From: Hyphomicrobiales bacterium
Lineage (GTDB): Bacteria > Pseudomonadota > Alphaproteobacteria > Rhizobiales > Devosiaceae
Assembly (NCBI GenBank): GCA_015487985.1
Contig: WFOP01000002.1
Span: 1-16,485, forward strand
Direction: 5' to 3'
Length of the DNA stretch: 16,485 nucleotides
Below, piece after piece: positions 1 through 16,485 of this stretch. Position 1 is the stretch's first letter; every line of letters starts with the position of its first letter. Position numbers and translations under genes: made by a program. The notes beneath the pieces are model-generated. The model worked only from the letters and a program-made list of their open reading frames with translations, did not search any database and was not told the DNA's origin.

Positions 1-1865
1 CGCGAAACCTTGTCAGCCGGTGTCAATTGCGCTTCTGCCTGAGCGATGCCCAGTTCAGTTGCCAGCTCGTGCACAGGGCCGGCCCTGTCCCCGGACAGCA
101 GACTGATCTGCACCCCCGCAGCTTTAAGGGCGTCAATGGCCTCTTTTGCCTCCGGGCGGGCGGTGTCGGACAATTCAAATCCGGCAACGGGTTTTTGGTT
201 GAGAGACAGCCAGACCTGCGAGCGGTTTGAATATTGTTGCGGGTTTTTTACCCCGCACCATTCTGCATGCCCCAGTCGCCATTCGCCCTGTTTATCGGTG
301 GCCTTTAGTCCTTGTCCGGGCACCTCGTCGACTTGCCCTTCAAAAACCTCGTTCACGCAGATTTTCTTTTCGTTTGCACCATCGCCAAGTGCAACGGAAA
401 ACGGATGTGCGCTGCGCCGGGCCAGACGCGCCGCTTGGGCAAAATCGGCACGATTGCCCAAAAGCTGCCCTTTCAGGCGTGGTTTGCCCACCGTCAAGGT
501 GCCGGTTTTATCAAATACAACATGATCGACCAGTGCCATTCGCTCCAGTGCCGCGCCGTCCTTCATGACGATGCCCGCCTCAAACAGCCTGCCTGCCGCC
601 ACGATATGCACCATGGGCACCGCCAGTCCCAGCGCGCAGGGGCAGGTGATAATCAGCACGGCTATGGAAATGACCGTGGCCACATGCCAGTCTCCCCCCA
701 GCAATCCCCACCCTAAAAAGGCACTCAGGGCCAGCATGTGAACGGCAGGGGCATAGATTTCAGCCGCCTTGTCGGCTACGCGCCGATAGCCCGCTTTTGA
801 GCCTTCTGCCGCCTCCATCAATTCAATCATGCGGGCCAGAAATGACTTGTCCGCCGGGTGTTCCGCTTTCAGGGAAATCGACCCCGATAGAATAAGGGTT
901 CCCGCCAGCAGGGATTGTCCCGGCTCCACAGGCTCCGGTTCTGCTTCCCCGCTCACCAGAGAAACATCCGCCTCGCTGACCCCTTCGATTACTTCGCCAT
1001 CCACAGGAATACGTTGACCGGCAAAAATGGACAGAACCATTCCCGGCTCGATGTCCCCGATTGCGACGGCCTCACGCCGACCATCCGGCAATATCTGAAC
1101 GGCGCTTCTGGGGGAGAGTTGGGCAAGGTTCTTGACTGCACCGCGCGCCTTTTCGCGCATCATATGATCCAGCGTGCGCCCCACCAATAAGAAGAATAAC
1201 AGGGAGACCGAGGCATCAAAATAAACCAGTTTTGCCCCGCGCGCCGTCTCAAAAATGCTCATGCACAAGGCCAGCACCACAGCAAGGGAAATGGGGACAT
1301 CCATGTTCAGCCTGCCATGGCGCAGGGCAGCGATAGCCGAGCGGAAAAATACCTGCCCTGAAAATCCCACGGTTGGAATGGCAATCAGGGCTGAAATCCA
1401 GTGGAACAGATCGCGGGTGGCCTCTTCCGCCCCCGACCAGACCGACACCGAAAACAGCATGATATTGCCTGCTGCAAAACCGGCAACAGCCATGGCACGG
1501 ATCAAGCTTCCCATTTGCCCGTCATCGTCCTCATCCAGCCCTTCGAGCAAAAGAATGCGGTGACCCGATTTTGTGACCGCCGCTGTCATTTGGTCCGGGG
1601 AGCCTTTTTCAGGATCATAGGTAATGCGCACCCGTTTGGTAGACAGGTTAACGCGTGCCGCATGCACCATGCCAAGCTCGCCCAGGTCCCGCTCAATGGT
1701 GGAGATACAGGTGGCGCAATGCACATCAGGCACCGCCAGTTCCAGTTGATTCAGACCTTCGCCAAGGGGCTTGGAGGCGGCAAGCAGGCTTTCATTGTCC
1801 GATTCTGCGGATTTGGTTGCCCCGATATGGGCCGCAGCTTCAATACCCGGAGCGCAACAACTCAT
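1..1865 (-). CDS. ccoI: CcoI/FixI copper-exporting P1B-type ATPase (3' end outside window)
   Basis: The product is a copper-translocating P-type ATPase of the inner membrane, needed to supply copper to the CcoN active site of cbb3 oxidase. About 621 residues are visible. An N-terminal MSCCAPG segment precedes a heavy-metal-associated domain with a metal-binding HCATC (residues 49-53). Membrane helices follow, then the actuator motif SGE (305-307), the metal-gating CPC in a transmembrane segment (408-410), the phosphorylation motif DKTGTLT (Asp452) and the His-Pro pair HP (487-488). The family is usually about 720-760 residues, so roughly the last 110-130, including the GDGxNDAPAL hinge motif, lie beyond base 1. 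The ATG at 1865-1863 was chosen because an in-frame TGA sits 27 bases upstream and GGAA precedes the ATG at SD distance. The actuator has SGE where many P-type ATPases have TGE. Downstream ccoS is expected outside the window. Identification is secure. Confidence 0.95.
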   Translation of the reverse strand, partial: MSCCAPGIEAAAHIGATKSAESDNESLLAASKPLGEGLNQLELAVPDVHCATCISTIERDLGELGMVHAARVNLSTKRVRITYDPEKGSPDQMTAAVTKSGHRILLLEGLDEDDDGQMGSLIRAMAVAGFAAGNIMLFSVSVWSGAEEATRDLFHWISALIAIPTVGFSGQVFFRSAIAALRHGRLNMDVPISLAVVLALCMSIFETARGAKLVYFDASVSLLFFLLVGRTLDHMMREKARGAVKNLAQLSPRSAVQILPDGRREAVAIGDIEPGMVLSIFAGQRIPVDGEVIEGVSEADVSLVSGEAEPEPVEPGQSLLAGTLILSGSISLKAEHPADKSFLARMIELMEAAEGSKAGYRRVADKAAEIYAPAVHMLALSAFLGWGLLGGDWHVATVISIAVLIITCPCALGLAVPMVHIVAAGRLFEAGIVMKDGAALERMALVDHVVFDKTGTLTVGKPRLKGQLLGNRADFAQAARLARRSAHPFSVALGDGANEKKICVNEVFEGQVDEVPGQGLKATDKQGEWRLGHAEWCGVKNPQQYSNRSQVWLSLNQKPVAGFELSDTARPEAKEAIDALKAAGVQISLLSGDRAGPVHELATELGIAQAEAQLTPADKVS

Positions 1866-1920: not shown

Positions 1921-2418
1921 TTAAGTACCCGGAATTGCAGGAGGCGCAACGATCAGACGTGCCCGGTAGTTAAAATCGGGCCGGCCGGGCATCAATGCAT
2001 GAATGACCACATTCCACACCCCGGCGGGAAGTTCTTCGGCCACTTCATACCATGTATGAACCGGCTGCAAGGTCAGTGTGCGGTCCAGCTTGGTGCCAAT
2101 TGGCCGGGTGAGCGCAATTGTTACGTCCTTCAACTCAACTGCCACATTGTCCTCATCAGCCAGGAAAAATTTCAAAATGCCATCCGAATAGCTGATATCA
2201 ATTTTAAGGTTGAGTTCGGCCTGAGCGCGTGAGGCGGCAAGTTTTTCATTGAATTGCTGGCTGGCAACATAGGAATTTTTAACCACCAGCCCGGTCCATG
2301 ATTGTGTTGCCTTGGTCGCCATAAAAATGTTGACGGAAAAGATGGTTCCAAAAAACAATATTATGATGATCAGCATATGTTTGCCGGTGAATGGTCGCTG
2401 AGTTTGTTCTTCACTCAT
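1921..2418 (-). CDS. ccoH: CcoH/FixH cbb3 oxidase assembly protein
   Basis: This 165-residue protein matches the FixH/CcoH family: a short cytoplasmic N-terminus, a single transmembrane segment (about residues 14-33) and a periplasmic beta-rich domain with the family-like ending that includes GVWNVVI and FNYRARL. CcoH is required for assembly or stability of cbb3 oxidase and is known to associate with it in other alphaproteobacteria. The ATG at 2418 is preceded by AAGGAAC at SD distance. The gene lies 24 bp after ccoG and 55 bp before ccoI, in the conserved ccoGHI order, so it is almost certainly cotranscribed from the promoter upstream of ccoG. Confidence 0.92.
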   Translation of the reverse strand: MSEEQTQRPFTGKHMLIIIILFFGTIFSVNIFMATKATQSWTGLVVKNSYVASQQFNEKLAASRAQAELNLKIDISYSDGILKFFLADEDNVAVELKDVTIALTRPIGTKLDRTLTLQPVHTWYEVAEELPAGVWNVVIHALMPGRPDFNYRARLIVAPPAIPGT

Positions 2419-2442: not shown

Positions 2443-4008
2443 CTATTGCGGTGCTTCAAAAATTGCTTTGGCCGAGGCGGTTTCAGAACCATCCACATCA
2501 CTGACCGTTACATAAAAGGTTTGTGGAACAGACAGCAGATCTTTTGTATCTGCCTGAATGTAAAGTCGAACCGGCTGAACCTGATCGGGGTCAATTTCAA
2601 GCGTAAGCGTTTCCTTGGGCTCGGTTTGTTGGCCCGCCAGTCGCAATGTGCCACCCTCAAGACCTTCAAGGGACATTGTAACAGTGCGCGGGTTGGGTGT
2701 CATGTTAAGAATCTTCACATCAAAACCATTGCTGACCGACCCATCGGAAAGCAAAACATATAACGGGTTGCGATCATGCAATAGATTGATTGCCAGTCGA
2801 TCCCGCGTGTTCAATACATATAACATGCCAAAGCCGATGGCCGCCAGCACCCCCGCATATAAAATTGTGCGCGGACGGAAGATGGTTTTCCAGTTGGCGT
2901 GTTTCAGAGTACTGACAAATCTGCCATCTTCGGTGCGCACGTTTTTGGGATTGTAGGTGTCCCCGTCCCCCATCGCAATTTTTACATTCTCATTGTAATC
3001 GTTCAGGGTTGTGTAGGAAATCAGGCCCTTTTCCCGTCCGATTTTCACCATGACATCATCACACGCATCAATACAAAGGGCGCAGGTGATACATTCAAGC
3101 TGATTGCCGTCTCGAATATCAATCCCCATGGGACAAACCGCCACGCAGGCATTGCATTCGATACAATCCCCCACAACTTTGCCTTGGGCCTTGGCTTTTT
3201 TGGTATGTTTTGTTCGCGGCTCGCCCCGCCAGTCATTATAGGTCACGGTTGCCGAATATTCATCCAGCATGGCCGCCTGAATGCGTGGCCACGGGCACAT
3301 GTAGGTGCAGACCTGTTCGCGCATGAATCCGCCAAAGACATAGGTAAAAGCGGTGAGGACGGCAATTGTTATATAGGCGGCAGGGGAGGCTTCAAAATTT
3401 ATCAGATCCTGCGCCAGTTGTGGCGCATCGGCAAAATAAAATACCCACGCCCCCCCGGTGCTGATGGCCAGCAGCAACCAGATAACGTGTTTTGAAACGC
3501 GTTTGACAACCTTGCTCAGGCTCCAGGGGGCCGCATCAAGTTTGATCCGGGCGTTTCTTTCTCCTTCAATGGCCCGCTCCACCACCAGAAACAGATCCAC
3601 CCAAACGGTTTGCGGGCAGGTATAGCCGCACCAGGCGCGTCCCACGGTGGAGGTGATGAGAAAAAGACCAATGCCCGCCATGACAAGCAGGCCGGCCACA
3701 TAATAAAATTCCTGCGGCCAGATTTCGATCCACAGGAAAAAGAACCGCCGGTTGGCCAGATCGATCAACACCGCCTGATCCGTTACATATTCACCCCGGT
3801 CCCATTTCAGCCATGGCGTGATATAGTAAATCGCCAGCGTCAAAACCATAATGATCCACTTCAGGCGCCGGAATGTTCCCTTTGCCCGTTTCGGGAAAAT
3901 TTTCTTTCGTGGGGCATAAAGTGGTTCGCGAACTTTTGCGGAGTTTACGGCTTCAACGTCGAACTGATCAATTCCCTTTTGAGAATCCTGATTTTTGTCA
4001 TCGAGCAT
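2443..4008 (-). CDS. ccoG: CcoG/FixG/RdxA iron-sulfur membrane protein, cupric reductase for cbb3 assembly
   Basis: This is a 521-residue polyferredoxin-like membrane protein. CcoG is known to reduce Cu(II) to Cu(I) in the copper delivery route to cbb3 oxidase. Two ferredoxin-type cysteine clusters are present: C282/C285/C288 plus C292, and C306/C309/C312 plus C316. Further conserved cysteines lie in WCGYTCP (C127, C131) and CTYMCPWPR (C234, C238). Several transmembrane helices precede the clusters, one follows at about residue 380, and the C-terminus is a periplasmic Ig-like domain. The frame extends upstream to a TTG at 4062, but the ATG at 4008 has AGG at SD distance and gives the normal family length, so it was preferred. 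The gene is first in ccoGHI and has its own FNR box about 95 bp upstream. Confidence 0.95.
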   Translation of the reverse strand: MLDDKNQDSQKGIDQFDVEAVNSAKVREPLYAPRKKIFPKRAKGTFRRLKWIIMVLTLAIYYITPWLKWDRGEYVTDQAVLIDLANRRFFFLWIEIWPQEFYYVAGLLVMAGIGLFLITSTVGRAWCGYTCPQTVWVDLFLVVERAIEGERNARIKLDAAPWSLSKVVKRVSKHVIWLLLAISTGGAWVFYFADAPQLAQDLINFEASPAAYITIAVLTAFTYVFGGFMREQVCTYMCPWPRIQAAMLDEYSATVTYNDWRGEPRTKHTKKAKAQGKVVGDCIECNACVAVCPMGIDIRDGNQLECITCALCIDACDDVMVKIGREKGLISYTTLNDYNENVKIAMGDGDTYNPKNVRTEDGRFVSTLKHANWKTIFRPRTILYAGVLAAIGFGMLYVLNTRDRLAINLLHDRNPLYVLLSDGSVSNGFDVKILNMTPNPRTVTMSLEGLEGGTLRLAGQQTEPKETLTLEIDPDQVQPVRLYIQADTKDLLSVPQTFYVTVSDVDGSETASAKAIFEAPQ

Positions 4009-4096
4009 AGTGGTGTGCCTGCTTGCCTTGGGGAAGGGGTCAACAGTGAAATGAATAAGCAATCATACCATTGTCATGTTATTTGCTTCCCATGTG

Positions 4097-4110
4097 TTGA
4101 TTTTTGTCAA
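4097..4110 (-). promoter_or_regulatory. FNR/FixK-type box upstream of ccoG
   Basis: The sequence TTGAT-TTTT-GTCAA matches the FNR-family consensus TTGAT-N4-ATCAA at nine of ten half-site positions. It is centred about 95 bp before the ccoG ATG, in the gap after the HupE-like gene. A GACAAT hexamer (minus, 4075-4070) lies at the spacing expected for class II activation; TATGAT (4067-4062) is a better hexamer but is 7 bp too far. Either places transcription start between about 4065 and 4055. FnrL, encoded in this window, is the likely activator. Confidence 0.85.
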
Positions 4111-4127: not shown

Positions 4128-5291
4128 TTACACAAAAAACGTGCGTTCTATAAACCACCATATGGCGATTGCGCCAATAGCTAATGAGGCCGGAATGACA
4201 ATAAATTTGTGATACCAGCTTGTTTTTGAGAACCAGAAGCCCACAACCAGAAAACACACGGCAATTACGCTGAGCTGACCCAGCTCCACCCCGATGTTAA
4301 AGGAGATCAGACCCACCACAAATTGATTGGCGGGCAGCCCGATTTCACTCAAAACGCCTGCAAAGCCCAAACCGTGCAACAGGCCAAATGCAAAGACGAC
4401 AAATGGCCGCCACCGGGTCAGTTTTTGCGTAAATATATTTTCCACGCTGACATAAACAATCGAAAGCGCAATCAGGGGTTCCACGAGGGCAGGGGAAGCA
4501 ACCACCAGTCCCGTAATGCCCAATGCCAGGCTGATTGTATGGGCAAGGGTAAACGCCGTGATCTGCCATAAAAGAGGGCGCAGTCTGGTCGACAGCAAAA
4601 ACAGGCCGACAACAAACAATATATGGTCAATGCCACGCGGGATAATATGAATATAACCAACGCCGATATAGTTGACGACCGTGTCAAAAAATCCGCGCGC
4701 CCTGGAGCCGGTAATGGGCAGAGGATCGCTTAGCTGTCCCTCAACGATATAGGCGGAATAGGCTTCGTTGTCCTCCTCCCCCGCAATACGGATAACGCTG
4801 GAGCCAAACTGAAAAACCCAGCCCCAGGTAAAGGTTTCAGCGCCGGGGGGGAGGTCTCCAACGATGGTCAGGGTGGATTCGCGCGCCAGATCGATATCCC
4901 CGGTTTCAGGAATTTCCACGCTTTGGATTCTCGCCTCAAGCGGGAGACCGTCGGCTTCAAGCCGAAGTCCTGCCAGAAACTCCGGGGAAAAATCCGCAAA
5001 CACCGTTTCAAGTTCTTCAGCGGACAAGGCGCGCATACGATCATATTCAGGCGCATTTTCACTTTGTGATGTATCGTCATTATCCGGCTCGATCCCGGCA
5101 ATGACGGCTTCAAGGTTGAGCAGAATTGAAATCGAATATTTCGAATCCTGCAAAAAACTCAAGTCCGCAATCGCAGGTTGCACTTCGTGGGCGACACTGC
5201 TCCACACCAGGGTGAATATCCCGATCACGCTTAGAAGAAGCCTCTTGAGCCAACGACGAATATAACCCACACTGAATAGTTGATATTTCAT
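4128..5291 (-). CDS. HupE/UreJ_2-type membrane protein, candidate metal permease
   Basis: The 387-residue product has a signal peptide (RRWLKRLLL core, likely cleaved at SSVA-HEV, leaving His35 first), an exported domain of about 170 residues (35-205) and a C-terminal bundle of about six or seven membrane helices. That bundle carries the HupE/UreJ_2 signatures: IIPRGIDHILFVVGLFLLS with His215, Asp222 and His223, AFTLAH (His251), SIVYVSVEN (Glu284), HGLGFAG (His306) and FNIGVELGQ (Glu336). HupE and UreJ relatives transport nickel; members of the _2 branch with a large exported domain are poorly characterised. The first motif here is H-X6-DH, one residue longer than the H-X5-DH of classical HupE. 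The ATG at 5291 has AGGAAA at SD distance. The gene is divergent from a DUF4198 gene 33 bp away and ends 119 bp before ccoG, with no convincing terminator, so read-through into ccoG is possible. Family assignment is firm; the metal is unknown. Confidence 0.85.
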   Translation of the reverse strand: MKYQLFSVGYIRRWLKRLLLSVIGIFTLVWSSVAHEVQPAIADLSFLQDSKYSISILLNLEAVIAGIEPDNDDTSQSENAPEYDRMRALSAEELETVFADFSPEFLAGLRLEADGLPLEARIQSVEIPETGDIDLARESTLTIVGDLPPGAETFTWGWVFQFGSSVIRIAGEEDNEAYSAYIVEGQLSDPLPITGSRARGFFDTVVNYIGVGYIHIIPRGIDHILFVVGLFLLSTRLRPLLWQITAFTLAHTISLALGITGLVVASPALVEPLIALSIVYVSVENIFTQKLTRWRPFVVFAFGLLHGLGFAGVLSEIGLPANQFVVGLISFNIGVELGQLSVIAVCFLVVGFWFSKTSWYHKFIVIPASLAIGAIAIWWFIERTFFV

Positions 5292-5303
5292 GCTTTTCCT
5301 TTT

Positions 5304-5323
5304 GGAGACTACTGGAGACTACT
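5304..5323. repeat. Tandem direct repeat of GGAGACTACT spanning the RBS region
   Basis: Two perfect 10-bp copies lie back to back in the 33-bp divergent gap. The second copy supplies the ribosome binding site GGAG (5314-5317), 7 bases before the ATG of the DUF4198 gene, and the first supplies a duplicate GGAG. Duplication by replication slippage is a simple explanation. Confidence 0.8.
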
Positions 5324-5324
5324 A

Positions 5325-6152
5325 ATGCCAATTAAATCAAAATTCAATCGGATGATCGCTGTTTTGGCGGCGGGGATACTGTTTTTGCAATCCCCTTCGT
5401 TTGGCCATGAATACTGGATCGAGCCAATCAGTTTTTCTCCCGCTTTGGGGCAGCAGGTTTCTGCAAATCTCAAGGTTGGTTCAGACCTTAAAGGGCAGTC
5501 TCTTGCATTTATCCCCCAGTTTACGCTCAGCTATCAGCTTATGGATGCAAAAGGGATGCTGGAACTGGAAGGCGCTGCGGGGGACAGGCCAGCTTTGAAC
5601 TTTTTCCCTGAGCAGGCCGGATTGAATGTCATTGTTTACCAGACCACAAAAAATCGGGTGACCTTTAGTGAATGGGAGGTATTTGAAAAATATCTGGTGA
5701 GTGAGGGCATGCCTGAAATTATCGGGCGGCACCGCGAGCGCGGCCTGCCTCAAACCGATTTTTCCGAAAGCTATTCACGATATGCAAAGACACTGATCGA
5801 CGTTGATTCCACAGGCACAGGAAATGACGCAGCCACGGGGATGATCATTGAACTGGTGGCAATGCAAAATCCCTATTCCTTGCAGCCCGGCGAGGAACTT
5901 GGCATCCAGCTGCTTTATCGCGGGGAACCGTTGGCGGACAATCAGATATCAATATTTATGCAGGATCAGGCCCGCACGAAAGAATTGGTTGTTGAGCGGG
6001 TGCGCACGGATGAAAACGGTCAGATCAAATTTGTGCCCGAGCCGGGTTTGATGTATCTGCTCAATTCAATTGAAATAGAAGAAATCAGCGGGCAGGGCAA
6101 ATTGTCATGGGAAAGTTTCTGGGCATCCTTGACGTTTGCGGTCCCTGAATAA
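5325..6152 (+). CDS. DUF4198-type exported protein, candidate periplasmic metal-binding partner
   Basis: The 275-residue protein has a signal peptide (hydrophobic core at residues 10-20, likely cleaved at PSFG-HEY) and then the DUF4198 hallmark HEYWIEP, so His28 would become the mature N-terminus. The rest is beta-rich: an N-terminal Ig-like region, a middle segment with FSESYSRYAKTLIDV, and a C-terminal region with NPYSLQPGEELGI and a terminal repeat-like fold. DUF4198 relatives are found beside nickel/cobalt transport genes and are thought to be periplasmic metal-handling proteins, but biochemical proof is limited. The ATG at 5325 was chosen because GGAG lies 7 bases upstream and the signal peptide follows directly; the open frame extends to 5280 only by overlapping the neighbouring gene. 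It is the only plus-strand gene within the cco region and ends before a strong terminator. Its pairing with the HupE-like gene suggests one shared system. Confidence 0.82.
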   Translation: MPIKSKFNRMIAVLAAGILFLQSPSFGHEYWIEPISFSPALGQQVSANLKVGSDLKGQSLAFIPQFTLSYQLMDAKGMLELEGAAGDRPALNFFPEQAGLNVIVYQTTKNRVTFSEWEVFEKYLVSEGMPEIIGRHRERGLPQTDFSESYSRYAKTLIDVDSTGTGNDAATGMIIELVAMQNPYSLQPGEELGIQLLYRGEPLADNQISIFMQDQARTKELVVERVRTDENGQIKFVPEPGLMYLLNSIEIEEISGQGKLSWESFWASLTFAVPE

Positions 6153-6174: not shown

Positions 6175-6207
6175 AAAAAAGGGGCTGTCCATAAAGGACA
6201 GCCCCTT
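6175..6207. terminator. Bidirectional intrinsic terminator
   Basis: A perfect 12-bp stem (6179-6190 AAGGGGCTGTCC paired with 6196-6207) encloses a 5-base loop. On the minus strand the stem is followed by six T residues, making a textbook terminator for ccoNOQP, whose last gene ends at 6232. On the plus strand it is followed by TTAAATTTATT and can end the DUF4198 transcript, which stops at 6152. It insulates two converging units. Confidence 0.92.
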
Positions 6208-6231: not shown

Positions 6232-7101
6232 CTATTGTCCACCACCAAGGGAGTGCACATAAACGGCCAACTGTTTGACGGTGACATCCCCCAGTTTTTC
6301 ACCCCATGCAGGCATTACACCATGTTGGGGCGTATCAATCTGGCTGACAATCGCATCAAGAGAACCGGCATACTGGAAGATGGCGTTGTTAAGCGCGGGC
6401 GCTCCCTGATAAATGTCGCCTGCCCCGGTTTCCCCGTGACATCCAGAACAATTGTCCAAAAACAGTTCTTCGCCTTCAGTTGTCTTTTCGCCGCCCTCAA
6501 AGCCACCAAGGAAGGCTGTATATTGTGCAACAGAGTGAATTTCCGCATTGGTAAGAATGTCATCCTTACCAAACGCGCTCATTTCACTGAAGCGGGTATC
6601 GAAATCCGCTTCATAGCGAATGCCATGATTGATCGTGGTATAGATGTCTTCGATTGTACCACCCCACAGCCACTCATCATCGTTCAGATTTGGATAGCCG
6701 ACAAATCCTTGTGCGCCAGAGCCGTGGCACTGGGAGCAGTTCAACTTGAAGGCTGCCGATCCCCCTGCGCGGGCAAACCGGGCCAGTTCCTCATCGCCAA
6801 TAATGTCCGTCAACTCGGTTGCATCAATGCGCGCAAAGAATTCCGCCTGTCCCTCTTTTGCTGCGGCAATATCGTTGGCCACGGCACCACGGCTGGTATA
6901 GCCCAGCACACCTGGCGTAAACGAATTGACCAGTGGAATGGCCGGCATGGCGATCATATAGCCCACCGCCCACACGATACAGGCATAAAATGTCCATAGC
7001 CACCAGCGCGGTAAAGGTGTGTTGAGCTCTTTGATTCCGTCCCACTCATGTCCCGTGGTTTCGGTGCCGCTAATCTTATCTACTTCGGGTTTGTCACTCA
7101 T
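6232..7101 (-). CDS. ccoP: CcoP/FixP, di-haem cytochrome c subunit of cbb3 oxidase
   Basis: This 289-residue subunit accepts electrons from the cytochrome bc1 side and passes them to CcoO. A cytoplasmic N-terminus precedes one transmembrane helix (about 32-58) and two periplasmic cytochrome c domains. The haem attachment motifs are CSQCH (C122, C125, H126) and CSGCH (C218, C221, H222), with likely axial methionines in MSAF (Met174) and MPAW (Met263). Length is normal for the family. The ATG at 7101 was chosen over an upstream in-frame ATG at 7131 because it has GAGG at SD distance and matches the usual MSDK-like start. The gene overlaps ccoQ by 8 bases, indicating coupled translation, and ends 25 bp before the shared terminator. 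Confidence 0.97.
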   Translation of the reverse strand: MSDKPEVDKISGTETTGHEWDGIKELNTPLPRWWLWTFYACIVWAVGYMIAMPAIPLVNSFTPGVLGYTSRGAVANDIAAAKEGQAEFFARIDATELTDIIGDEELARFARAGGSAAFKLNCSQCHGSGAQGFVGYPNLNDDEWLWGGTIEDIYTTINHGIRYEADFDTRFSEMSAFGKDDILTNAEIHSVAQYTAFLGGFEGGEKTTEGEELFLDNCSGCHGETGAGDIYQGAPALNNAIFQYAGSLDAIVSQIDTPQHGVMPAWGEKLGDVTVKQLAVYVHSLGGGQ

Positions 7102-7273
7102 TTTTGTTGTCCTCATCCAACAGGGTTTCATCCCTTAGTGGAATACCTGCGGCATCAATTGCACGTTTTTTGGCTCCGGGTAAAAACAGGCTGAAAAGCA
7201 CGCCCAGCCAAACAATCACCAGGTATAAAAGTCCCCAACTGTCGGCAAATTCGCGAAAAATTCCGTAATCCAT
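7094..7273 (-). CDS. ccoQ: CcoQ/FixQ, small cbb3 oxidase subunit
   Basis: This short gene encodes 59 residues beginning MDYGIFREFADSWGLLYLVI, with one transmembrane helix (about 14-31) and a charged cytoplasmic tail containing GAKKRAIDAAGIPL, a characteristic CcoQ pattern. CcoQ stabilises the CcoP-CcoNO complex in several bacteria. The ATG at 7273 is preceded by AGGGGGATGAA, a strong SD. It starts 11 bp after ccoO ends, and its TGA lies inside the start of ccoP. The tail is acidic (DETLLDEDNKNE). Confidence 0.93.
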   Translation of the reverse strand: MDYGIFREFADSWGLLYLVIVWLGVLFSLFLPGAKKRAIDAAGIPLRDETLLDEDNKNE

Positions 7274-7284
7274 TTCATCCCCCT

Positions 7285-8031
7285 TTAGCGATAATTGGCT
7301 TCTGGCTCATAGGTTGAAAAATCAACCAGTGTTCCAAGCATTTGCAGATAGGCAACCAGCGCGTCCATCTCACTCACCATGTCCGGGTTGCCGTCATAGT
7401 CTTCAATGCGCACATTGTTGTAGCGCGATTCAAGTCCCGAAGAATCAAGCTCGGGATTGGCCTGAGCCAGCAAATCTGCTGTGGCATTGTCAATCATGCC
7501 CTGATCGTAGGGAACCCCCACCATCGCATTGGCCCTGAGTGCATTTGACATGAGGTTGTTGGATGTCAGGCTGTATTCCAGCACGGTGTCCTTCATGAAG
7601 GCATAGGTTGGCATGACAGATTCAGGCACCACCGAACGCGGGTCAATCAGATGTTGAACATGCCATTCACTGGAATAGCGATCCCCGACCCGGGCCAGAT
7701 CCGGCCCGGTTCGTTTTGACCCCCATTGGAAGGGGTGGTCATACATGCTTTCGGCCGCCAGAGAATAGTGGCCAAACCGCTCGACTTCATCCCTGAACGG
7801 ACGGATCATCTGCGAGTGGCACAAATAGCACCCTTCACGAATATAAATATCGCGTCCTGCCAGTTCCAAAGGTGTGTAGGGGCGCATCCCCTCCACTTTT
7901 TCGATTGTACTTTCAAGATAAAAAAGCGGCGCAATTTCCACGATCCCCCCGATTGAAACCACAAGAAGTGATCCAACCAGCAATAGGGTTGCGTTGCGTT
8001 CAATAATACCGTGTTTTTCAAGAAGTCCCAT
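7285..8031 (-). CDS. ccoO: CcoO/FixO, mono-haem cytochrome c subunit of cbb3 oxidase
   Basis: This 248-residue membrane-anchored cytochrome c relays electrons from CcoP to the CcoN haems. It has an N-terminal transmembrane helix (about 14-37), the motif [16 protein letters not shown] with haem-binding C68, C71 and H72, then the family blocks GHYSLAAES and GPDLARVG, and a likely axial Met140 in PESVMPTY. Length is typical. The ATG at 8031 has GGGAGC upstream. The gene is 12 bp downstream of ccoN and 11 bp upstream of ccoQ, in a tightly packed operon. Confidence 0.97.
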
Positions 8032-8043
8032 TGTTTCGGCTCC

Positions 8044-9657
8044 CTATTCAGCTGGTTGGATGTTAGCAGACGCGCTGCCAGGAATCGGACGTTCATTGCG
8101 TGATTTACCCAGAATGGTCATCCAGATATTGTAGGCCATGATACATCCACCGATGAGATAAAGCAGTCCACCGATCATGCGAAGAATATAGTAGGGCTTC
8201 ATCGCCGCCACGGTTTCCGCAAAGGAATAGACCAGGAAGCCCTGGGCATCATATTCACGCCACATCAGCCCCTGTGTAATGCCCGACACCCACATCACCG
8301 CAGCATAAACAACGATGCCAAGGGTCGCCAGCCAGAAGTGCCAGTTGACCATGCGCATGGAATAAAGGCCTTCACGGTTCCACAATCTGGGCACCATGTA
8401 ATACAGGGCGCCAAACGTGATCATGCCAACCCAGCCCAATGCGCCCGAGTGTACGTGCCCGATGGTCCAGTCGGTATAGTGAGACAAACCGTTCACCGCC
8501 TTGATGGCCATAACAGGTCCCTCAAACGTGCTCATGCCATAAAACGCCACGGCAATCACCATCATGCGGATAATCGGATCGGTGCGCATTTTGTCCCATG
8601 CACCCGACAGCGTCATCAAGCCGTTGATCATGCCACCCCAGGAAGGCATCCACAACATGATCGAAAATGCCATGCCAAGTGTTTGCGCCCAATCGGGCAA
8701 AGCCGTATAGAGCAGGTGGTGAGGACCGGCCCAGATATAAAGGAATATCAGGGACCAGAAGTGAATGATTGACAAGCGATAGGAATAAACCGGACGCTGG
8801 GCCTGTTTGGGCATGAAATAATACATCATTCCCAGGAACCCGGCAGTCAGGAAAAATCCAACCGCATTATGTCCGTACCACCACTGGGTCAAAGCGTCCT
8901 GCACCCCGGCAAAGAGCGAATAGCTTTTTGACCCCAGGAACGAAACCGGCCAGGCCAGATTGTTCACAACGTGCAGCATGGCAATCGTGATGATGAAGGC
9001 CAGATAGAACCAGTTGGCCACATAGATGTGGGGCTCTTTGCGCTTGAACAGCGTGCCCATGAACATCACCAGATAGGCGACCCACACAATCGTCAGCCAG
9101 ATATCGACATACCATTCAGGCTCGGCATATTCCCGGCTTTGGGTGATGCCCAAAAGATAGCCCGTTGCCGCAAGCAGAATGAAGAACTGATAGCCCCACA
9201 TGACAAACCATGCCAGCCCGCCACCAAACAGGCGCGCCCGGCAGGTGCGTTGCACCACATACATTGAGGTTGTGATCAACGCCGTGCCGCCAAAAGCAAA
9301 AATCACAGCGGATGTATGAAGCGGACGCATCCGGCCAAAGGAGAACCATGGCTCCCACATAAATTCCGGCCATGCCAGTTGTGAGGCAATAACCACCCCT
9401 TGGGTAAATCCGATAACGCCCCAGAACATGGTGAGGATTGCCCCCACGCGAATTGGATCGTCCATATACCCGGTTGGATCAACCGGTTCGGCAGGGGTAA
9501 ACCCCACGCGCCGCAACAGGATGATTGTAGCCAGTCCCAAAGTCAGCGCAATGATCGACATATGGATCTGAAACGCGCTGTCCTGAGCAAATGCTGCAAG
9601 CAGGAGCGTGATGAATGTACCGGCCCCCACTACAATTGTGCTTGTAATATTTCTCAT
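8044..9657 (-). CDS. ccoN: CcoN/FixN, catalytic subunit of cbb3-type cytochrome c oxidase
   Basis: This 537-residue, about 12-helix haem-copper oxidase subunit reduces oxygen to water at high affinity and pumps protons across the inner membrane. All active-site residues are visible: His114 (RPLHTSA, low-spin haem b), His263 ([10 protein letters not shown], CuB), Tyr307 (FLYIWAG, the helix VII tyrosine cross-linked to the CuB histidine in this family), His313 and His314 (GPHHLLYT, CuB), His401 (haem b3) and His403 (haem b) in [12 protein letters not shown]. From His263 on, positions track Pseudomonas stutzeri CcoN with an offset of 56, reflecting the longer alphaproteobacterial N-terminus. The ATG at 9657 is preceded by AAGGGA. 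It is the first gene of ccoNOQP, with an FNR box about 139 bp upstream. Confidence 0.98.
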
Positions 9658-9789: not shown

Positions 9790-9803
9790 TTGACCTAAAT
9801 CAA
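9790..9803. promoter_or_regulatory. FNR/FixK-type box shared by ccoN and the hemerythrin gene
   Basis: The sequence reads TTGAC-CTAA-ATCAA on the plus strand and TTGAT-TTAG-GTCAA on the minus strand, nine of ten half-site bases of the FNR consensus. It is the only such box between the divergent ccoN and hemerythrin genes. On the plus strand a weak -10 GAAAAT (9826-9831) lies at class II spacing, giving a start near 9838; on the minus strand the box serves ccoNOQP. FnrL encoded nearby is the likely binder. Confidence 0.85.
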
Positions 9804-10372: not shown

Positions 10373-10456
10373 AGCATGCCCAGAGCATTCTCGGTTTTTG
10401 TTTTTACGCGTTTCCGGACGGATAACCGGTGTCCACTTATCCTGGAAACGCTCTAG
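10373..10456. repeat. RIME-like palindromic intergenic element
   Basis: The whole 80-bp gap between two convergent genes is a structured palindromic sequence. The arms GCGTTTCC (10408-10415) and GGAAACGC (10444-10451) are perfect, and a nested stem GGATAA (10420-10425) pairs with TTATCC (10437-10442). AGAGC near the left and GCTCT at the right form outer ends. The sequence resembles, from memory, the short palindromic elements dispersed in Hyphomicrobiales genomes. Its right edge overlaps the fnrL stop codon. The T-rich stretch at 10394-10405 could aid transcript ending on the plus strand. Confidence 0.7.
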
Positions 10457-11199
10457 CTTTTGATACGGCTGCCATAGCCGCATGAACGGCGCAGTTTTTC
10501 AATATCGGCCACACTGATATGGCGGTGATTCTTGATGCTGATAATGCCGCTCTTGCGCAATTTGGTGAATTGGCGCGACACAGTTTCAATGGTCAGCCCC
10601 AAAAAATCGGCTATGTCGGAACGGGTGAGAGGCAGATCAAAACTGATCGCACTGTCTTCGTGGGTGGGGTCCTTGTGGGTGGCAATCAGGTATAAAAAAC
10701 TGGCCACTTTTTCGTTGGCGGTTTTTCTGCCCAGTGTCACCATCCATTCGCGCGCCTCATCCAGTTCACGCAAGGTCTGCTCCAGCAGCCGTCCCTCAAG
10801 GGCGGGGTTTTTCGCCACCAGCGCTTCAAGGGCGGCCCTGGGCATGCGGCAAAGTTCAACATCGGAAGCCGCATCGGCGTTCAGGTTGCTTTCGCGACCA
10901 TAAAGCCGGCCTAAAAAATCCGGGGCAAATTGCAGTCCCACGACCTGTTGGCGCCCATCCTCAAGCACCTTGGAGAGTTTGACCACCCCGTGCATTACCG
11001 AGGCATAGCTTTCAATCGGGTCCGCATCGTTGATTAACTGCTCGCCCGCCTTGCGCACCACCTGACGGCTGTTGCGGCTCAACTCGAGTAATTCGGATTC
11101 CTCAAGCACGCCACAAATTCCACGGTGCCGGGCTTCGCAGTTCTGGCACAGGTTGGGAACCGCAGAATTGTGCACATCTTTTCGTTCGCTATCAGTCAT
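10453..11199 (-). CDS. fnrL: FnrL-type oxygen-sensing Crp/Fnr regulator
   Basis: This 248-residue cytoplasmic regulator has the layout of FNR: an N-terminal cysteine cluster (C18, C21, C29) plus a central Cys117 (VELCRMP) to hold an oxygen-labile [4Fe-4S] cluster, a cyclic-nucleotide-binding-like beta domain (about 35-125), a dimerisation helix (about 130-160) and a winged helix-turn-helix. The recognition helix LTIETVSRQFTKL contains Glu205, Ser208 and Arg209, the residues that read TTGAT half-sites. It should activate the cco operons under low oxygen, since both have matching boxes. The ATG at 11199 lacks a good SD; a GTG at residue 9 is an alternative, and neither changes the cluster. No FNR box was seen upstream of the gene itself. 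It is a single gene between two repeat elements. Confidence 0.93.
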   Translation of the reverse strand: MTDSERKDVHNSAVPNLCQNCEARHRGICGVLEESELLELSRNSRQVVRKAGEQLINDADPIESYASVMHGVVKLSKVLEDGRQQVVGLQFAPDFLGRLYGRESNLNADAASDVELCRMPRAALEALVAKNPALEGRLLEQTLRELDEAREWMVTLGRKTANEKVASFLYLIATHKDPTHEDSAISFDLPLTRSDIADFLGLTIETVSRQFTKLRKSGIISIKNHRHISVADIEKLRRSCGYGSRIKS

Positions 11200-11314
11200 C
11201 TATAAAGCAATTTGTTGGATGGTTTTTTCAAAGTTCAACATCATTTTTACATATTGCGATTGTTTGGGCCACCCCAGAAAACACAGGGGCGCCAATATCG
11301 CAGTTTTGAAACCC

Positions 11315-11443
11315 AAAGCATGCCTCCCAAAAGCATGCCCTCGGGCTTGACCCGTGGGTGGTACCGGTTTTGGGATAAAAGACATGCGTTCAACAAGAAG
11401 ATAAAGCATGTTGCGTAAATACGATTGAACCCAGCATGCTTTA
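11315..11443. repeat. Composite palindromic repeat element between fdhD and fnrL
   Basis: Of the 241-bp gap, about 128 bp is a mosaic element. Its ends are a perfect 9-bp inverted repeat, AAAGCATGC (11315-11323) and GCATGCTTT (11434-11442), with further AAGCATGC copies at 11331 and 11405. An inner pair ACATGC (11382-11387) and GCATGT (11406-11411) forms a second dyad. The text resembles, from memory, RIME-type elements of Hyphomicrobiales. The right end supplies the last bases of the fdhD stop codon TAA (11443-11441). The rest of the gap, 11200-11314, shows only a weak A/T-rich stretch that could hold the fnrL promoter. Confidence 0.7.
11338..11358. repeat. Small hairpin inside the composite repeat
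   Basis: CCCTCGGG and CCCGTGGG form an 8-bp stem with one mismatch around the 5-base loop CTTGA. This unit resembles, from memory, a GC-rich palindrome common in alphaproteobacterial intergenic DNA and may have been inserted into, or merged with, the larger element. It is not followed by a T tract, so it is unlikely to be a classical terminator. Confidence 0.5.
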
Positions 11444-12235
11444 GTCAAAAATCATAATGTTTGTTTCCGCCTGAGCGCCAATCTTCATGGCCGCTTTTTT
11501 TGAAATCGCCAATGCAAGGCTGGTGGGGGCCGAAACACAGGCAACGAATGAAAAACCAAAAGAGGCGGACTTTTGTGCCATTTCAACCGAATAACGGCTG
11601 GACAGGACTAAAAACCCTGTTTTGGCAGATAGTTCAGCCCTGGCCATGGCCCCGATCAATTTGTCCAGAGAGTTATGCCTTCCCACATCCTCGCGCAAGA
11701 GTAATATTTCGCCATTTTCATTTGCCAGAGCTGCCGCATGGGTTGAATAGTTTTTTTGCCGTAATTTTTGTTGTGCCGGCAGGTTTTTCAGCGCCTTGAG
11801 CGCAATGGGTGGCGAGGGGATAAATCCGCGGGTTTTTTTAACCCGTGGCAGGGCAATGGCAAGGGACTGCGCTCCGCAAATGCCACAGCTTGAAGCCCCC
11901 GCGATTGAACGTTTGCGGGTTCGGGCTATTTTGAGTGCTTCTTCGGGAACGATGATATTCACCCCCATCCCCTGCGCCAGATTTTCCAGTCGGATATCGC
12001 CAATCTCACTGACTGAATTGATGATGCCTTCGCTCAAACTGAAGCCGATGGCAAATTCCTCGAAATTGTCGGGGGTCATCATCATCACCCCGAACTGGAT
12101 GCCATTGTAAAAAATTACTACGGGCATTTCTTCAGCGATTTCCCAGCCGGTGGGTTCGCCATATTGTGCGGGAGGCTCGTGGGATGAGCCGTTTTCCTCA
12201 GGGCCATATCTATGTCCCCTGACCCTGTCACTCAC
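11441..12235 (-). CDS. fdhD: FdhD/FdsC formate dehydrogenase accessory sulfurtransferase
   Basis: FdhD transfers sulfur from the cysteine desulfurase to the molybdenum cofactor, or inserts the sulfurated cofactor into formate dehydrogenase; it acts in the cytoplasm. The 264-residue product contains the essential CxxC (SSCGICGAQ, Cys117 and Cys120), the HNSLDK block in EDVGRHNSLDKLIG, and LLLREDVG and VLSSRYSVEM of this family. The start is GTG at 12235, which overlaps the fdsA stop as GTGA, a coupling typical of operons; the protein then begins MSDRVRGH. It follows fdsB and fdsA, matching the fdsGBAC order of Rhodobacter. The usual downstream fdsD was not found. The stop codon lies at the edge of a repeat element. 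Confidence 0.95.
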   Translation of the reverse strand: MSDRVRGHRYGPEENGSSHEPPAQYGEPTGWEIAEEMPVVIFYNGIQFGVMMMTPDNFEEFAIGFSLSEGIINSVSEIGDIRLENLAQGMGVNIIVPEEALKIARTRKRSIAGASSCGICGAQSLAIALPRVKKTRGFIPSPPIALKALKNLPAQQKLRQKNYSTHAAALANENGEILLLREDVGRHNSLDKLIGAMARAELSAKTGFLVLSSRYSVEMAQKSASFGFSFVACVSAPTSLALAISKKAAMKIGAQAETNIMIFD

Positions 12236-15108
12236 GATATTTTGGGCGCCCGCTTCGCCAGGTCAGCTTGCCCCCCGGATTGAAAGGCAACATTTTTACT
12301 CTTCTTGCGATCCTTTTGCCAGTTGGAAAGATGGCTGGTGCGTTTCACCTCAACCGCCGTAACCTTGTATTCGGGGCAATTGGTGGCCCAGTCACTATTG
12401 TCAGTGGTGATGACATTTGTTCCGCTTACCGGGTGGTGAAAGGTTGTATAAACCACTCCCGGCGTCATACGCAGACTGAGTTCAACCCTTAGACTGGTGG
12501 TACCCATGCGTGAAGAAACCTCCACCCGGTCCTTGTCGCATATGCCCCTTTGCTGCGCATCATGGGGATGGATTTCCAGCACATCTTCGTGATGCCATCT
12601 CGAGTTTGGTGTGCGCCTTGTCTGCGCCCCCACATTATATTGGCTCAATATGCGCCCCGTGGTCAGAATAAGCGGAAATTTGCGCGATGTGCGCTCGGTT
12701 GTGGGAATATATTGCGTTTCAACAAACAGCCCCTTCCCGCGAACAAACCCGTCCGCATGCACAATCGGCGTGCCATCCACGGCCCCCTCGTTCACCGGCC
12801 ACTGCAAGGCCCCCTGTGTGTCCAGCCGTTTATGGCTGACCTCGGCAAAGCTGGGGGTCAGCCGTGCGATTTCATCCATGATTTCGCTTGGGTTCTCATA
12901 GTGCATGGGATAACCCATTTTGCTGGCCAGCGCTGCCGCCACCTGCCATTCCGCCATGCCGCATTTTTCTTCCATGACCTTGTGCACCCGATTGATTCGG
13001 CGCTCGGCATTGGTGAACGTGCCCTCTTTTTCCAGAAAAGTTGTGCCGGGCAAAAACACATGGGCATACATTGCGGTTTCATTCAGGAATAAATCCTGCA
13101 CCACCAGACAGTCCAGCGCTTCAAGGGCGGCTGTTACATGTTTTGTATTGGGGTCCGATTGGGCCAGATCCTCCCCCTGAACAAACATGCCCCTATAGGT
13201 GCCCGCAATGGCACCATCAAACATATTGGGCAGGCGCAATCCGGGGGTGCCGGACAGTTTTACCCCCCAGTCTTTTTCAAATTCAGCACGCACCGCCTTG
13301 TCCTTGACGGATCGATAACCGGAAAATTCATGGGGGAACGAGCCCATGTCGCACGATCCCTGAACATTGTTCTGCCCGCGCAAAGGATTTACCCCGACAC
13401 CGGGCCGCCCGATATTGCCCGTTGCCATGGCCAGATTTGCCATGGCCATCACACTGGTGGAACCCTGGGAATGTTCGGTGACCCCCAGCCCATAATATAT
13501 GCCCGCGTTTTTTGCGCTGGCAAAAAGTCGTGCCGCCTCGCGAATGGTCTCTGCCTCGACCCCGGAAATTCTGGATGCGGCTTCGGGGGAGTTTTCAGGG
13601 CTTGCAATAAATTTCACCCATTGCTCATAAGCCTGTACATCGCATTTTTCAGCGATGAAATCTTCATCGATCAGGTTTTCTTGAACTGCCACATGGGCCA
13701 GTGCATTGAGAATGGCCACGTTAGAGCCGGGGCGTAAAGCCAGATGATGGGCGGCGTTGATATGGGGTGAGCGCACCAGATCAATCCGGCGTGGATCAAT
13801 GACAATCAGTTTTGCTCCCGCCCGCAAACGTTTTTTCAGCCGGGAAGCAAACACCGGATGCCCGGCGGTGGGGTTGGCACCGATCAGCAAAACCACATCG
13901 CAGCTCTCAACGGATTTGAAATCCTGCGTTCCCGCCGAGGTGCCAAAGGCGGTTTTCAGTCCATATCCGGTGGGGGCATGACAGACCCGGGCACAGGTAT
14001 CCACATTGTTTGAACCAAAGGCGGCCCGCACCATTTTTTGTACCACAAACACCTCTTCATTGGTGCAGCGCGACGAGGTGACCCCGCCTATGGCGCTTTT
14101 ACCATGGGTGGCAATGATCGTGCTGAACCTGTTGGCGGTGAAGTCAATGGCGTCTTCCCAACTGACAACCCGCCAGGGGTCAGAGATTTTATCGCGGATC
14201 ATGGGCTGTGTGATGCGCTGATCATGGGTGGCATAATCAAAGGCGAACCGCCCTTTGACACAGGAATGGCCCTCGTTGGCGCCGCCCGCTTTTGCAGGCA
14301 CCATGCGAATAACCTCATCCCCCTGCAATTCCACGCGAAATGAGCACCCCACCCCGCAATAGGCGCAGGTAGTGTCAACATAACGGGTCGGCACCCCATG
14401 TTCCACCACCTTGGTCTCGACAAGAGAAGCGGTGGGACAGACCCCGATGCAGGCACCACACGAAACACATTCTGAGGAAAAGAAGTCATCAAGGGGCGTG
14501 CCCGCCGTAATTCTTGACAAGAACCCGCGCCCCTCAACCCCCAAAGCGAAGCTGCCCTGCACTTCTTCACAGGCCCGAACGCATCTGGAGCAAACGATAC
14601 ATTTTGAGGGATCATATTGAAAATAGGGGTTGGACTGGTCGACCGGTTGAGCGGTTTGGGGCGAAAAATGGTTTTCCCCCTGATAGCTATAACGCACGTC
14701 GCGCACCCCGATTTCCCCGGCAACATCCTGCAACTCGCAATCCCCGTTGGTGGCGCAGGTGAGGCATTCAAGGGGATGATCGGACAGATAAAGTTCCATC
14801 ACCCCCTGGCGCAATTTTGCCAGACGTGGGTTCCGGGTGGTAACTTTCATGCCCGCTGCCACCGGTGTTGTGCATGAAGCGGGCGTGCCTTTCATGCCTT
14901 CGATTTGAACCAGGCACAGGCGGCACGAACCAAAGGCCTCCAATCGGTCGCTGGCGCATAATTTTGGAATATCGCGCCCGATTTCCCGCGCTGCCCGCAT
15001 AACGGAGGTGCCGGCGGGTACGTTCACCTCAACCCCGTCAATGCTCAGGCTGACAGGCTCGCCCTGCGCAGCGGGTGTACCAAAATCTTTTTCCTTTTTC
15101 AGCGACAT
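12232..15108 (-). CDS. fdsA: FdsA, molybdenum catalytic subunit of NAD-dependent formate dehydrogenase
   Basis: This 958-residue cytoplasmic enzyme oxidises formate to CO2 at a bis-MGD molybdenum centre and passes electrons to FdsB. The N-terminus is NuoG-like: a [2Fe-2S] set (C51, C62, C65, C79), a His-Cys3 cluster (H111, C115, C118, C124), and two further [4Fe-4S] sets (C170/C173/C176 with C224; C214/C217/C220 with C180). A proximal cluster (C248, C251, C255, C283) leads into the molybdopterin domains. The active site is cysteine type, not selenocysteine: Cys376 and His377 in ARVCHAPT, with Arg577 in NPLRGQN; all are ten residues below the Rhodobacter capsulatus numbers (386, 387, 587) as recalled. 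The C-terminal domain (from about 820) closes the cofactor site. The ATG at 15108 lies one base after the fdsB stop, with GGGAGC as SD. Length equals known FdsA proteins. Confidence 0.97.
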   Translation of the reverse strand: MSLKKEKDFGTPAAQGEPVSLSIDGVEVNVPAGTSVMRAAREIGRDIPKLCASDRLEAFGSCRLCLVQIEGMKGTPASCTTPVAAGMKVTTRNPRLAKLRQGVMELYLSDHPLECLTCATNGDCELQDVAGEIGVRDVRYSYQGENHFSPQTAQPVDQSNPYFQYDPSKCIVCSRCVRACEEVQGSFALGVEGRGFLSRITAGTPLDDFFSSECVSCGACIGVCPTASLVETKVVEHGVPTRYVDTTCAYCGVGCSFRVELQGDEVIRMVPAKAGGANEGHSCVKGRFAFDYATHDQRITQPMIRDKISDPWRVVSWEDAIDFTANRFSTIIATHGKSAIGGVTSSRCTNEEVFVVQKMVRAAFGSNNVDTCARVCHAPTGYGLKTAFGTSAGTQDFKSVESCDVVLLIGANPTAGHPVFASRLKKRLRAGAKLIVIDPRRIDLVRSPHINAAHHLALRPGSNVAILNALAHVAVQENLIDEDFIAEKCDVQAYEQWVKFIASPENSPEAASRISGVEAETIREAARLFASAKNAGIYYGLGVTEHSQGSTSVMAMANLAMATGNIGRPGVGVNPLRGQNNVQGSCDMGSFPHEFSGYRSVKDKAVRAEFEKDWGVKLSGTPGLRLPNMFDGAIAGTYRGMFVQGEDLAQSDPNTKHVTAALEALDCLVVQDLFLNETAMYAHVFLPGTTFLEKEGTFTNAERRINRVHKVMEEKCGMAEWQVAAALASKMGYPMHYENPSEIMDEIARLTPSFAEVSHKRLDTQGALQWPVNEGAVDGTPIVHADGFVRGKGLFVETQYIPTTERTSRKFPLILTTGRILSQYNVGAQTRRTPNSRWHHEDVLEIHPHDAQQRGICDKDRVEVSSRMGTTSLRVELSLRMTPGVVYTTFHHPVSGTNVITTDNSDWATNCPEYKVTAVEVKRTSHLSNWQKDRKKSKNVAFQSGGQADLAKRAPKIS

Positions 15109-15109
15109 T

Positions 15110-16485
15110 TTATGCGCTCCCGTTTTTTTTCACACCCGACTTTTCCGGCAGTCCAAAATCCGCAGGGAAAAGTTTCAGGGCTGAAAGCACCGGCAGGGGC
15201 GTCAAGCCCCCCATGGCACACAAAGACCCCGCCTCCATGATGGTGCAAAGGTCGTGCAACAGTGCCACATTGTTTTGTGTATCTGTGCCGGCCAGAATTT
15301 TATCAATGGTCTCCACTCCGCGCACCGACCCGATGCGACACGGTGTGCATTTGCCGCAGGATTCCATGGTGCAAAACTCAAAGGCGAACCGGGCCAACTC
15401 CCCCATGTTGGCGCTTTCATCAAAAACCACGATTCCCCCGTGGCCAAGCATCAGGCCGGCTTTACTCAGGCTTTCATAGTCCATGGCAATATCGAGCATC
15501 GAGGCGTCCGCATAGGCGCCAAGCGGCCCACCAAGCTGGGCGCATTTGAACGGTTTGCCCGAAGCGGTTCCCCCGCCAAAATCCTCAATTATTTCCCCTA
15601 GTGTCAGGCCAAAAGGCACTTCGATCAGCCCCCCCTGTTTGACATTGCCCGCCAGTTGAAACGCCTGCGTACCGCGTGAGCGCCGGGTTCCCTTTTTTTC
15701 ATAAGTTTTGGCACCGCCCGTTATGATTGCAGGAATACTGGCCAGCGTTAAAACATTGTGCACCAGCGTTGGTTTTCCAAACAGGCCCGATATTGCGGGA
15801 ATGGGGGGCTTGGCCCGCACCTGTCCGCGTTTGCCCTCAAGACTTTCCAGCATGGCGCTTTCTTCGCCACATACATAAGAACCCGCCCCCCGGCGCACTT
15901 CAACACTAAAGCTGAGGGATGAACCTGAAATATTCGGCCCCAGCCACCCCGCATCCAGCAAAATTCGGATAGCTGATTTCAGGGTCTTGATGGCCCCGGG
16001 ATATTCACTGCGCACATATATCAGCCCCTTGTCAGCGCCGATGGCAAACCCGGCAATCATCATCGCTTCGATCAGGGCAAACGGGTCCCCCTCCATCACC
16101 ATGCGATCAGCAAAGGTGCCGCTGTCCCCTTCATCGGCGTTACAGCAGACATATTTTTGCGGCTCTTTTTGCTCCGCTACCGTTTTCCACTTGATACCGG
16201 CGGGAAACCCGGCACCTCCCCGTCCCCTTAGGCCCGAAATCCGCACCTGCTCAAGGATGGCTTCAGGGCCGATTTTAAGAGCTTTTCTTAAGGCCGAGAA
16301 ACCGCCGGTGCGGATATAATCGGGCAAATCCAGCGGTTGGGTTTTCCCCGCCCGTTGAAATATCTGCCGATCCTGGCGGGCAAGAAAGGGAATTTCTTCA
16401 ACCGATCCGACAAAGCTGGCATGGGGCTGCCCATTTTCAAAACCGGCATCAAGCAGCGAAGCCACATCGCGGGCCTCTATGGGGC
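15110..16485 (-). CDS. fdsB: FdsB, FMN/NAD-binding subunit of formate dehydrogenase (5' end outside window)
   Basis: FdsB is the diaphorase subunit that carries FMN and [4Fe-4S] and reduces NAD+ with electrons from FdsA; it is a NuoF homologue. The visible frame remains open to base 16485. Counting from the GTG at 16465 (451 residues), it shows the NAD-binding glycine loop RGRGGAGFPAG (80-90), the FMN site NADEGDSGTF (109-118), GAGSYVCGEESA (193-204), and the cluster ESCGKCTPCR (C370, C373, C376) with Cys416. Family members are about 500 residues with an N-terminal thioredoxin-like region, so roughly 50-80 residues probably lie outside; the GTG is not taken as the true start because the frame continues upstream as PIEARD. 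The small subunit gene fdsG is expected to the right. The stop TAA is one base from the fdsA ATG. Confidence 0.95.
   Translation of the reverse strand, partial: PIEARDVASLLDAGFENGQPHASFVGSVEEIPFLARQDRQIFQRAGKTQPLDLPDYIRTGGFSALRKALKIGPEAILEQVRISGLRGRGGAGFPAGIKWKTVAEQKEPQKYVCCNADEGDSGTFADRMVMEGDPFALIEAMMIAGFAIGADKGLIYVRSEYPGAIKTLKSAIRILLDAGWLGPNISGSSLSFSVEVRRGAGSYVCGEESAMLESLEGKRGQVRAKPPIPAISGLFGKPTLVHNVLTLASIPAIITGGAKTYEKKGTRRSRGTQAFQLAGNVKQGGLIEVPFGLTLGEIIEDFGGGTASGKPFKCAQLGGPLGAYADASMLDIAMDYESLSKAGLMLGHGGIVVFDESANMGELARFAFEFCTMESCGKCTPCRIGSVRGVETIDKILAGTDTQNNVALLHDLCTIMEAGSLCAMGGLTPLPVLSALKLFPADFGLPEKSGVKKNGSA

Follow-up and report, generated by a model that had tools for sequence, protein, structure and literature searches.

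A divergent HupE/DUF4198 gene pair inside a cbb3 oxidase locus as a candidate periplasmic metal-uptake module

The closest described relatives of the proteins considered here are the anglerases, whose Ang-1 domain was named in a 2025 paper and binds copper; RbAng-1a (structure PDB 9GCE) binds Cu(II) first and Ni(II) second, with a dissociation constant of 74 nM for copper and 220 nM for nickel, and DUF4198 proteins were already listed there as prevalent neighbours of Ang-1-HupE (PMC12537917). The HupE family itself includes known nickel permeases (PMC12537917). A copper importer of another kind, the major facilitator superfamily protein CcoA, brings copper to the cytoplasm for cbb3 oxidase in Rhodobacter capsulatus. 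In Rhizobiales, truncated CcoA-like genes lie directly downstream of the cco clusters, and a survey counted cbb3 without CcoA in 74 of 327 alphaproteobacteria (PMC5829832). Here we describe a concrete candidate for a copper route to the cytoplasm for cbb3 assembly in bacteria without CcoA, a gene pair encoding a HupE/UreJ_2 permease and a secreted DUF4198 protein in the cbb3 locus of a Hyphomicrobiales bacterium of the Devosiaceae. The window analysed, 16,485 nucleotides (nt), is an entire contig (WFOP01000002.1) of a 2.07-Mb, 82.7%-complete draft genome (GCA_015487985.1).

In our view the two genes probably form a self-contained periplasmic module for metal capture and import, with copper the likeliest cargo and nickel the second, which was inserted once and has its own divergent promoters. 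What carries this reading are the identity of the genes, a His as the first residue behind a probable signal peptide, the fold matches, the conserved pairing and the single clade of cco-located copies.

Results

An anglerase-type HupE and a secreted DUF4198 protein

The two genes stand head to head between ccoP and ccoG, with 33 nt separating their start codons.

4128..5291, minus strand: HupE/UreJ_2 permease of 387 amino acids that carries an Ang-1 domain at its N-terminus (PF13795, E 3.3e-47)
4695..5189, minus strand: Ang-1 (anglerase) periplasmic beta-sandwich domain, starting at His1 (phmmer and Foldseek to PDB 9GCE)
4227..4670, minus strand: HupE_UreJ_2 transmembrane domain (profile match, alignment of relatives)
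5325..6152, plus strand: DUF4198 secreted protein, 275 amino acids (PF10670, E 8.5e-27)
5292..5324, no strand: divergent gap of 33 nt, with both Shine-Dalgarno-like stretches inside

The HupE protein has a signal peptide of about 34 residues, as judged by eye, and its mature N-terminus is the His codon at 5187-5189. The domain that follows matches 9GCE by phmmer (3.7e-14), with precursor His35 aligned to residue 1 of that structure, and its model matches by Foldseek (E 4.3e-12, target-normalised template-modelling score 0.87), each protein having been modelled singly and the HupE model being of moderate quality (predicted local distance difference test 84.6). An N-terminal His, an immunoglobulin-like Ang-1 domain and a C-terminal PF13795 domain, by which an Ang-1-HupE/UreJ-2 anglerase is recognised, were all found. 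In mature numbering, His181, Asp188, His189 and His272 are conserved in 54/54 aligned relatives. Among 41 located HupE N-termini, including four distant ones (L043-L046), 38 begin with His and three with Asp; 11 more rows, which are partial, membrane-only or divergent, have no recognisable motif. The three Asp1 copies form a single clade, and DUF4198 is absent from their fetched stretches. This paralogue clade comprises L037, L040 and L041, and in L037 and L041 a 5'-nucleotidase C-terminal domain is found in an adjoining protein. There are also relatives consisting of the membrane domain only (L106, L107 and L110); L106 lies beside an ABC ATPase and an FtsX-type permease, and L107 and L110 have neighbours of equal size.

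The DUF4198 protein scores 95.1 bits against PF10670 (cut-off 34), and the fold matches agree. Its open frame begins at 5280 with TTG, and the preferred start is the ATG at 5325, which follows GGAG; a tandem copy of TGGAGACTAC at 5303-5322, the ribosome-binding site of this gene, gives it two Shine-Dalgarno-like stretches. The mature N-terminus is the His codon at 5406-5408, and an N-terminal His is encoded by all 30 located paired DUF4198 genes. Across 31 aligned paired proteins, His1, Trp4, Glu121, Arg125, Lys128 and Glu149 are invariant and His109 occurs in 22; His1 and His109 are the only two His of the mature window protein. The nickel site of the IsDUF4198 type, formed by His1 and His18, is therefore incomplete in the window protein, which has His1 and lacks His18. 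In none of the 31 aligned proteins was His18 found, although the register against 9GCB itself is not displayed, and six of them have a His at positions 20-22. That both window proteins match metal-binding proteins of known structure with an N-terminal His (PMC12537917) gives good support to the view, put forward in a preliminary description of this DNA, that the pair serves metal capture or uptake.

Conserved pairing and a cco placement seen in one genus

HupE relatives were sought in 385 alphaproteobacterial genomes at 1e-40, a threshold biased toward close relatives, and 33 genomes matched; removal of three with membrane-domain-only matches (G063, G199 and G298) left 30 with a full-length relative, the window's own genome included. 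Loci were fetched with usually about 8 kb per side, less on small contigs, and their genes were called with a simple codon script, by which some neighbours are wrong or missed. DUF4198 adjoins HupE in 25 of the 30 genomes. The fetched stretches of the other five (G424, G067, G235, G197 and G135) have no adjacent DUF4198; in G235 and G197 the HupE protein is so divergent that it may fall outside the true Ang-1 type, and the G067 contig is short. A second, phylum-wide draw gave 10 new HupE loci, all from one family, 9 of them with DUF4198. All 30 HupE-DUF4198 pairs that were measured, a set that takes in genus copies and near-duplicates, are divergent, and their starts lie a median of 27 nt apart; the start rule of this survey gives 60 for the window, where the ATG at 5325 gives 33.

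Within the genus, five of the six other genomes examined hold ccoG and HupE. HupE lies between ccoP and ccoG on a single contig in G002, G004 and G006, while in G003 and G005 the contig ends carry ccoP-DUF4198 and HupE-ccoG apart, which is compatible with the same order. DUF4198 is present in four of these five congeners, none being found in G006; HupE identity among them falls from 85% to about 54-64%. No ccoG, HupE or DUF4198 was found in the sixth genome, G001, which is 74% complete. The position of the pair between ccoNOQP and ccoGHI, as first described, is thus borne out by coordinates, Pfam matches and gene order in congeners, and chance is a poor account of it because so many of the same-genus genomes hold ccoG and HupE in a fitting order.

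Outside the genus, cco genes were found at none of the HupE loci in 29 class genomes (full-length HupE, fetched stretch) and within 1.5 kb at none of the 10 additional phylum loci. The six cco-located HupE copies form one clade in the tree (support 99/96), which makes a single insertion the simplest account, and the pair probably entered the cco locus once, in an ancestor of the genus. In GC content the pair differs little from the flanking genes, which gives no sign of recent transfer.

Gene order and control elements

The cco genes and putative control elements of the window are as follows.

8044-9657, minus strand: ccoN
7285-8031, minus strand: ccoO
6232-7131, minus strand: ccoP
2443-4062, minus strand: ccoG
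1921-2418, minus strand: ccoH
3-1865, minus strand: ccoI
6179..6207, no strand: terminator-like hairpin of 12 pairs between DUF4198 and ccoP, with its T-run on the ccoP-reading strand
4097..4110, plus strand: FNR-box-like palindrome TTGATTTTTGTCAA between HupE and ccoG (exact match)
9790..9803, minus strand: FNR-box-like palindrome upstream of ccoN (exact match)

A short ccoQ-like frame lies in the gap between ccoO and ccoP (7132-7285). Upstream of ccoN, positions 10453-16483 encode a Crp/FNR-type regulator, fdhD, a formate dehydrogenase alpha subunit and a NuoF-like subunit, an order repeated in G005 (L118). The hairpin scan returned 4 in total, no excess over shuffled sequences (3.5).

The FNR-like box between HupE and ccoG is present in all five other HupE-bearing genomes of the genus, and the box upstream of ccoN in 3/3 of the other genus genomes whose stretch reaches there; since one-mismatch matches are common by chance, it is this conserved position that counts. 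The divergent gap has no FNR-like box at up to one mismatch, and read-through from HupE into ccoG could occur. The divergent region has no inverted repeats, and an alignment by eye of the DNA of four genus loci gave no clear operator. Because the ccoN and ccoG operons each keep an FNR-like box of their own, the pair looks like a unit independent of them. Since both Shine-Dalgarno-like stretches fall within the 33-nt gap, each promoter is probably located within the reading frame of the other gene.

Nickel enzymes and copper-linked neighbours

The nickel-enzyme survey covered urease in the 385 class genomes and in 10 genomes of the genus or order, and [NiFe] hydrogenase and nickel superoxide dismutase (Ni-SOD) in 40 genomes. 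Urease was counted at E < 1e-20, which gave 112 of the 385 (169 at 0.001 and 157 at the family cut-off), a partial match in G284 being retained. The preliminary description had seen no nickel enzyme in the window, which is true, and no match to urease, [NiFe] hydrogenase or Ni-SOD was obtained in the 82.7%-complete draft genome either; yet two module-bearing congeners, G002 and G005, have urease. Two of the 40 genomes pass the family cut-off for [NiFe] hydrogenase, G439 clearly and G006 with a match (1.4e-8) that covers the first 66 of 508 positions only. The match in G006 and five below the cut-off (5e-4 to 7e-4, first 68 positions) were not counted as hydrogenase; we presume that these six partial matches may be complex I subunits.

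Neighbouring genes were scanned twice, with 96 proteins (the best 25 of 123 families listed) and with 84 proteins, partly outside the first set, in four batches at 1e-12 and mostly two genes per side. Copper-linked neighbours are few and come from three lineages outside the genus. A copper amine oxidase gene lies directly downstream of HupE on the same strand in G067 (L082:424-3714) and on plasmid NZ_CP081071.1 of Leisingera caerulea S122 (L134:5977-10629). DUF4198 is not head to head with HupE in these cases: the L082 stretch has none, and on the plasmid it follows downstream in the same orientation. In G060 (L035:8829-10962), the pair is flanked by an MNIO/MbnB-like enzyme, a DUF2063 protein and a precursor with six Cys that has no Pfam family match, and an MNIO, a DUF2063 protein and a Cys-rich precursor are the make-up of bufferin copper clusters (PMC12452194). 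A DUF983 protein beside HupE, tried as a link to COX operons, was dropped, as the single locus inspected (L085) shows NUDIX genes and no COX gene. COX2 is present in 39 of 40 genomes and is for that reason uninformative on the pair.

Discussion

We propose that DUF4198 would be exported and bind a metal ion by its N-terminal His, and that the Ang-1 domain tethered to HupE, also with His first, would take the ion, either directly or with DUF4198 as its source, and pass it to the HupE/UreJ_2 permease for delivery to the cytoplasm. The module would have landed once between two FNR-driven cco operons and would still be read from its own divergent promoters. The direction of transport, the hand-over between the two proteins, the metal and the promoters are the parts of this scheme that we infer.

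Several observations weigh against copper import as the task of the pair, and most of them would suit uptake of nickel, or nickel and cobalt, for urease or other nickel enzymes, with an accidental location among the cco genes. IsDUF4198 prefers nickel (PMC12537917), which joins the precedent of nickel-carrying HupE proteins; urease is commoner in pair genomes (14 of 25) than in the others (98 of 360; Fisher P 0.005), G063, G199 and G298 being counted among the others and kinship being uncorrected in this test as in that on cbb3 below; and the one Ni-SOD among the 40 genomes has its gene 11 kb away from HupE (G164, contig C18, 60877-73706), no other nickel enzyme having been found near HupE. 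Most scanned loci have ordinary neighbours linked to neither metal, and bufferins, to whose clusters the G060 locus is likened, guard against copper excess rather than acquire the metal (PMC12452194). Nickel uptake nonetheless seems to us unlikely, if the least unlikely of the alternatives. In the 16 class genomes with full-length HupE and urease, urease is never near HupE: ten have the two genes on different contigs, and in the other six they are separated by at least 205 kb. All three nickel enzymes surveyed are missing from 10 of the 25 pair genomes, and RbAng-1a favours copper (PMC12537917). The amine oxidase neighbours in two lineages, the bufferin-like cluster in a third and the His18 missing from the paired DUF4198 proteins together make copper more likely than nickel as the cargo. 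A role in copper, suggested at the outset, is to this extent plausible, whereas the service to cbb3 oxidase that was attached to it finds no support.

A copper importer at a cco locus would make sense, given that CcoA imports copper for cbb3 and that CcoA-like genes adjoin cco clusters in Rhizobiales, and the pair might then be a dedicated stand-in for CcoA, with HupE importing copper and CcoI, which has a step in passing imported copper on to cbb3, sending it to the oxidase. HupE stays between ccoP and ccoG in five congeners, two of them judged from contig ends, despite large divergence, and the copper binding of Ang-1 and the many cbb3-bearing genomes that lack CcoA would both fit. The cco placement, however, is that of one clade and recurs at none of the other class loci; both cco operons have FNR-like boxes and the divergent gap has none; cbb3 is found in 11 of 25 pair genomes and 145 of 360 others (Fisher P 0.83), which is no co-occurrence; and some near-complete genomes of 1.2-1.4 Mb retain the pair without cbb3. 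The two comparisons of pair genomes with the others, on urease and on cbb3, are evidence against a link to cbb3 and a mild point for nickel. The preliminary description had named, as telling against its proposal, a pair mostly away from cco genes and beside nickel enzymes; the pair does lie mostly away from cco genes, but no nickel enzyme stands directly beside it in the scanned loci. Dedication to cbb3 is unproven and we regard it as improbable, even if the cco setting hints at copper. A broader variant, doubtful but a shade less so, is that the pair is a general alphaproteobacterial copper import route, in which copper would be the cargo of this large branch of 'nickel permeases', and that it feeds cbb3 in place of CcoA in this genus. 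Periplasmic buffering or sensing of copper instead of import would suit the bufferin-like cluster beside one copy (G060) and the proposal that DUF6702, a secreted family with N-terminal His, is a metal sequesterase (PMC12537917); against it, the partner is a permease whose motif residues are intact in every aligned relative, and this is the explanation we find hardest to credit.

As a candidate metal-uptake module, probably for copper, the pair casts doubt on the custom of labelling HupE/UreJ_2 proteins as nickel transporters. Natural contrasts on metal choice, and on whether the two proteins work together, are offered by the lack of His18 and by the Asp1 clade, which has no DUF4198 nearby.

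Comparison with known systems

Zcp (PDB 9MHI-9MHO), for whose structures a literature search found no paper, shares 18% identity with its counterpart in the window, and the one mutated His that falls in the aligned part, taken as H142, is matched by a Ser. In the IsDUF4198 or NikK-type protein (PDB 9GCB) the second nickel ligand is the His18 that the window protein lacks. CcoA resembles the pair as an importer whose gene adjoins cco clusters in Rhizobiales (PMC5829832), but it belongs to a protein family unrelated to HupE. The nickel transporter HupE of Rhizobium leguminosarum (Brito 2010, as cited in PMC12537917) is of the same permease superfamily and serves a hydrogenase, whereas the window's draft genome has no hydrogenase match. 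Closest is RbAng-1a, with which the window HupE shares a probable signal peptide, an N-terminal His, an Ang-1 beta-sandwich followed by a HupE_UreJ_2 domain, and a DUF4198 neighbour; its copper ligand Asn41, described as poorly conserved (PMC12537917), is Ser in the window protein. The window anglerase differs in sitting in a cbb3 locus, a word that the main text of PMC12537917 does not contain. Judged by sequence, the pair thus appears to be of a largely known kind, an Ang-1-HupE anglerase with a DUF4198 neighbour; new here are the conservation of the divergent pairing across the class and the confinement of the cco placement to one genus among the loci examined.
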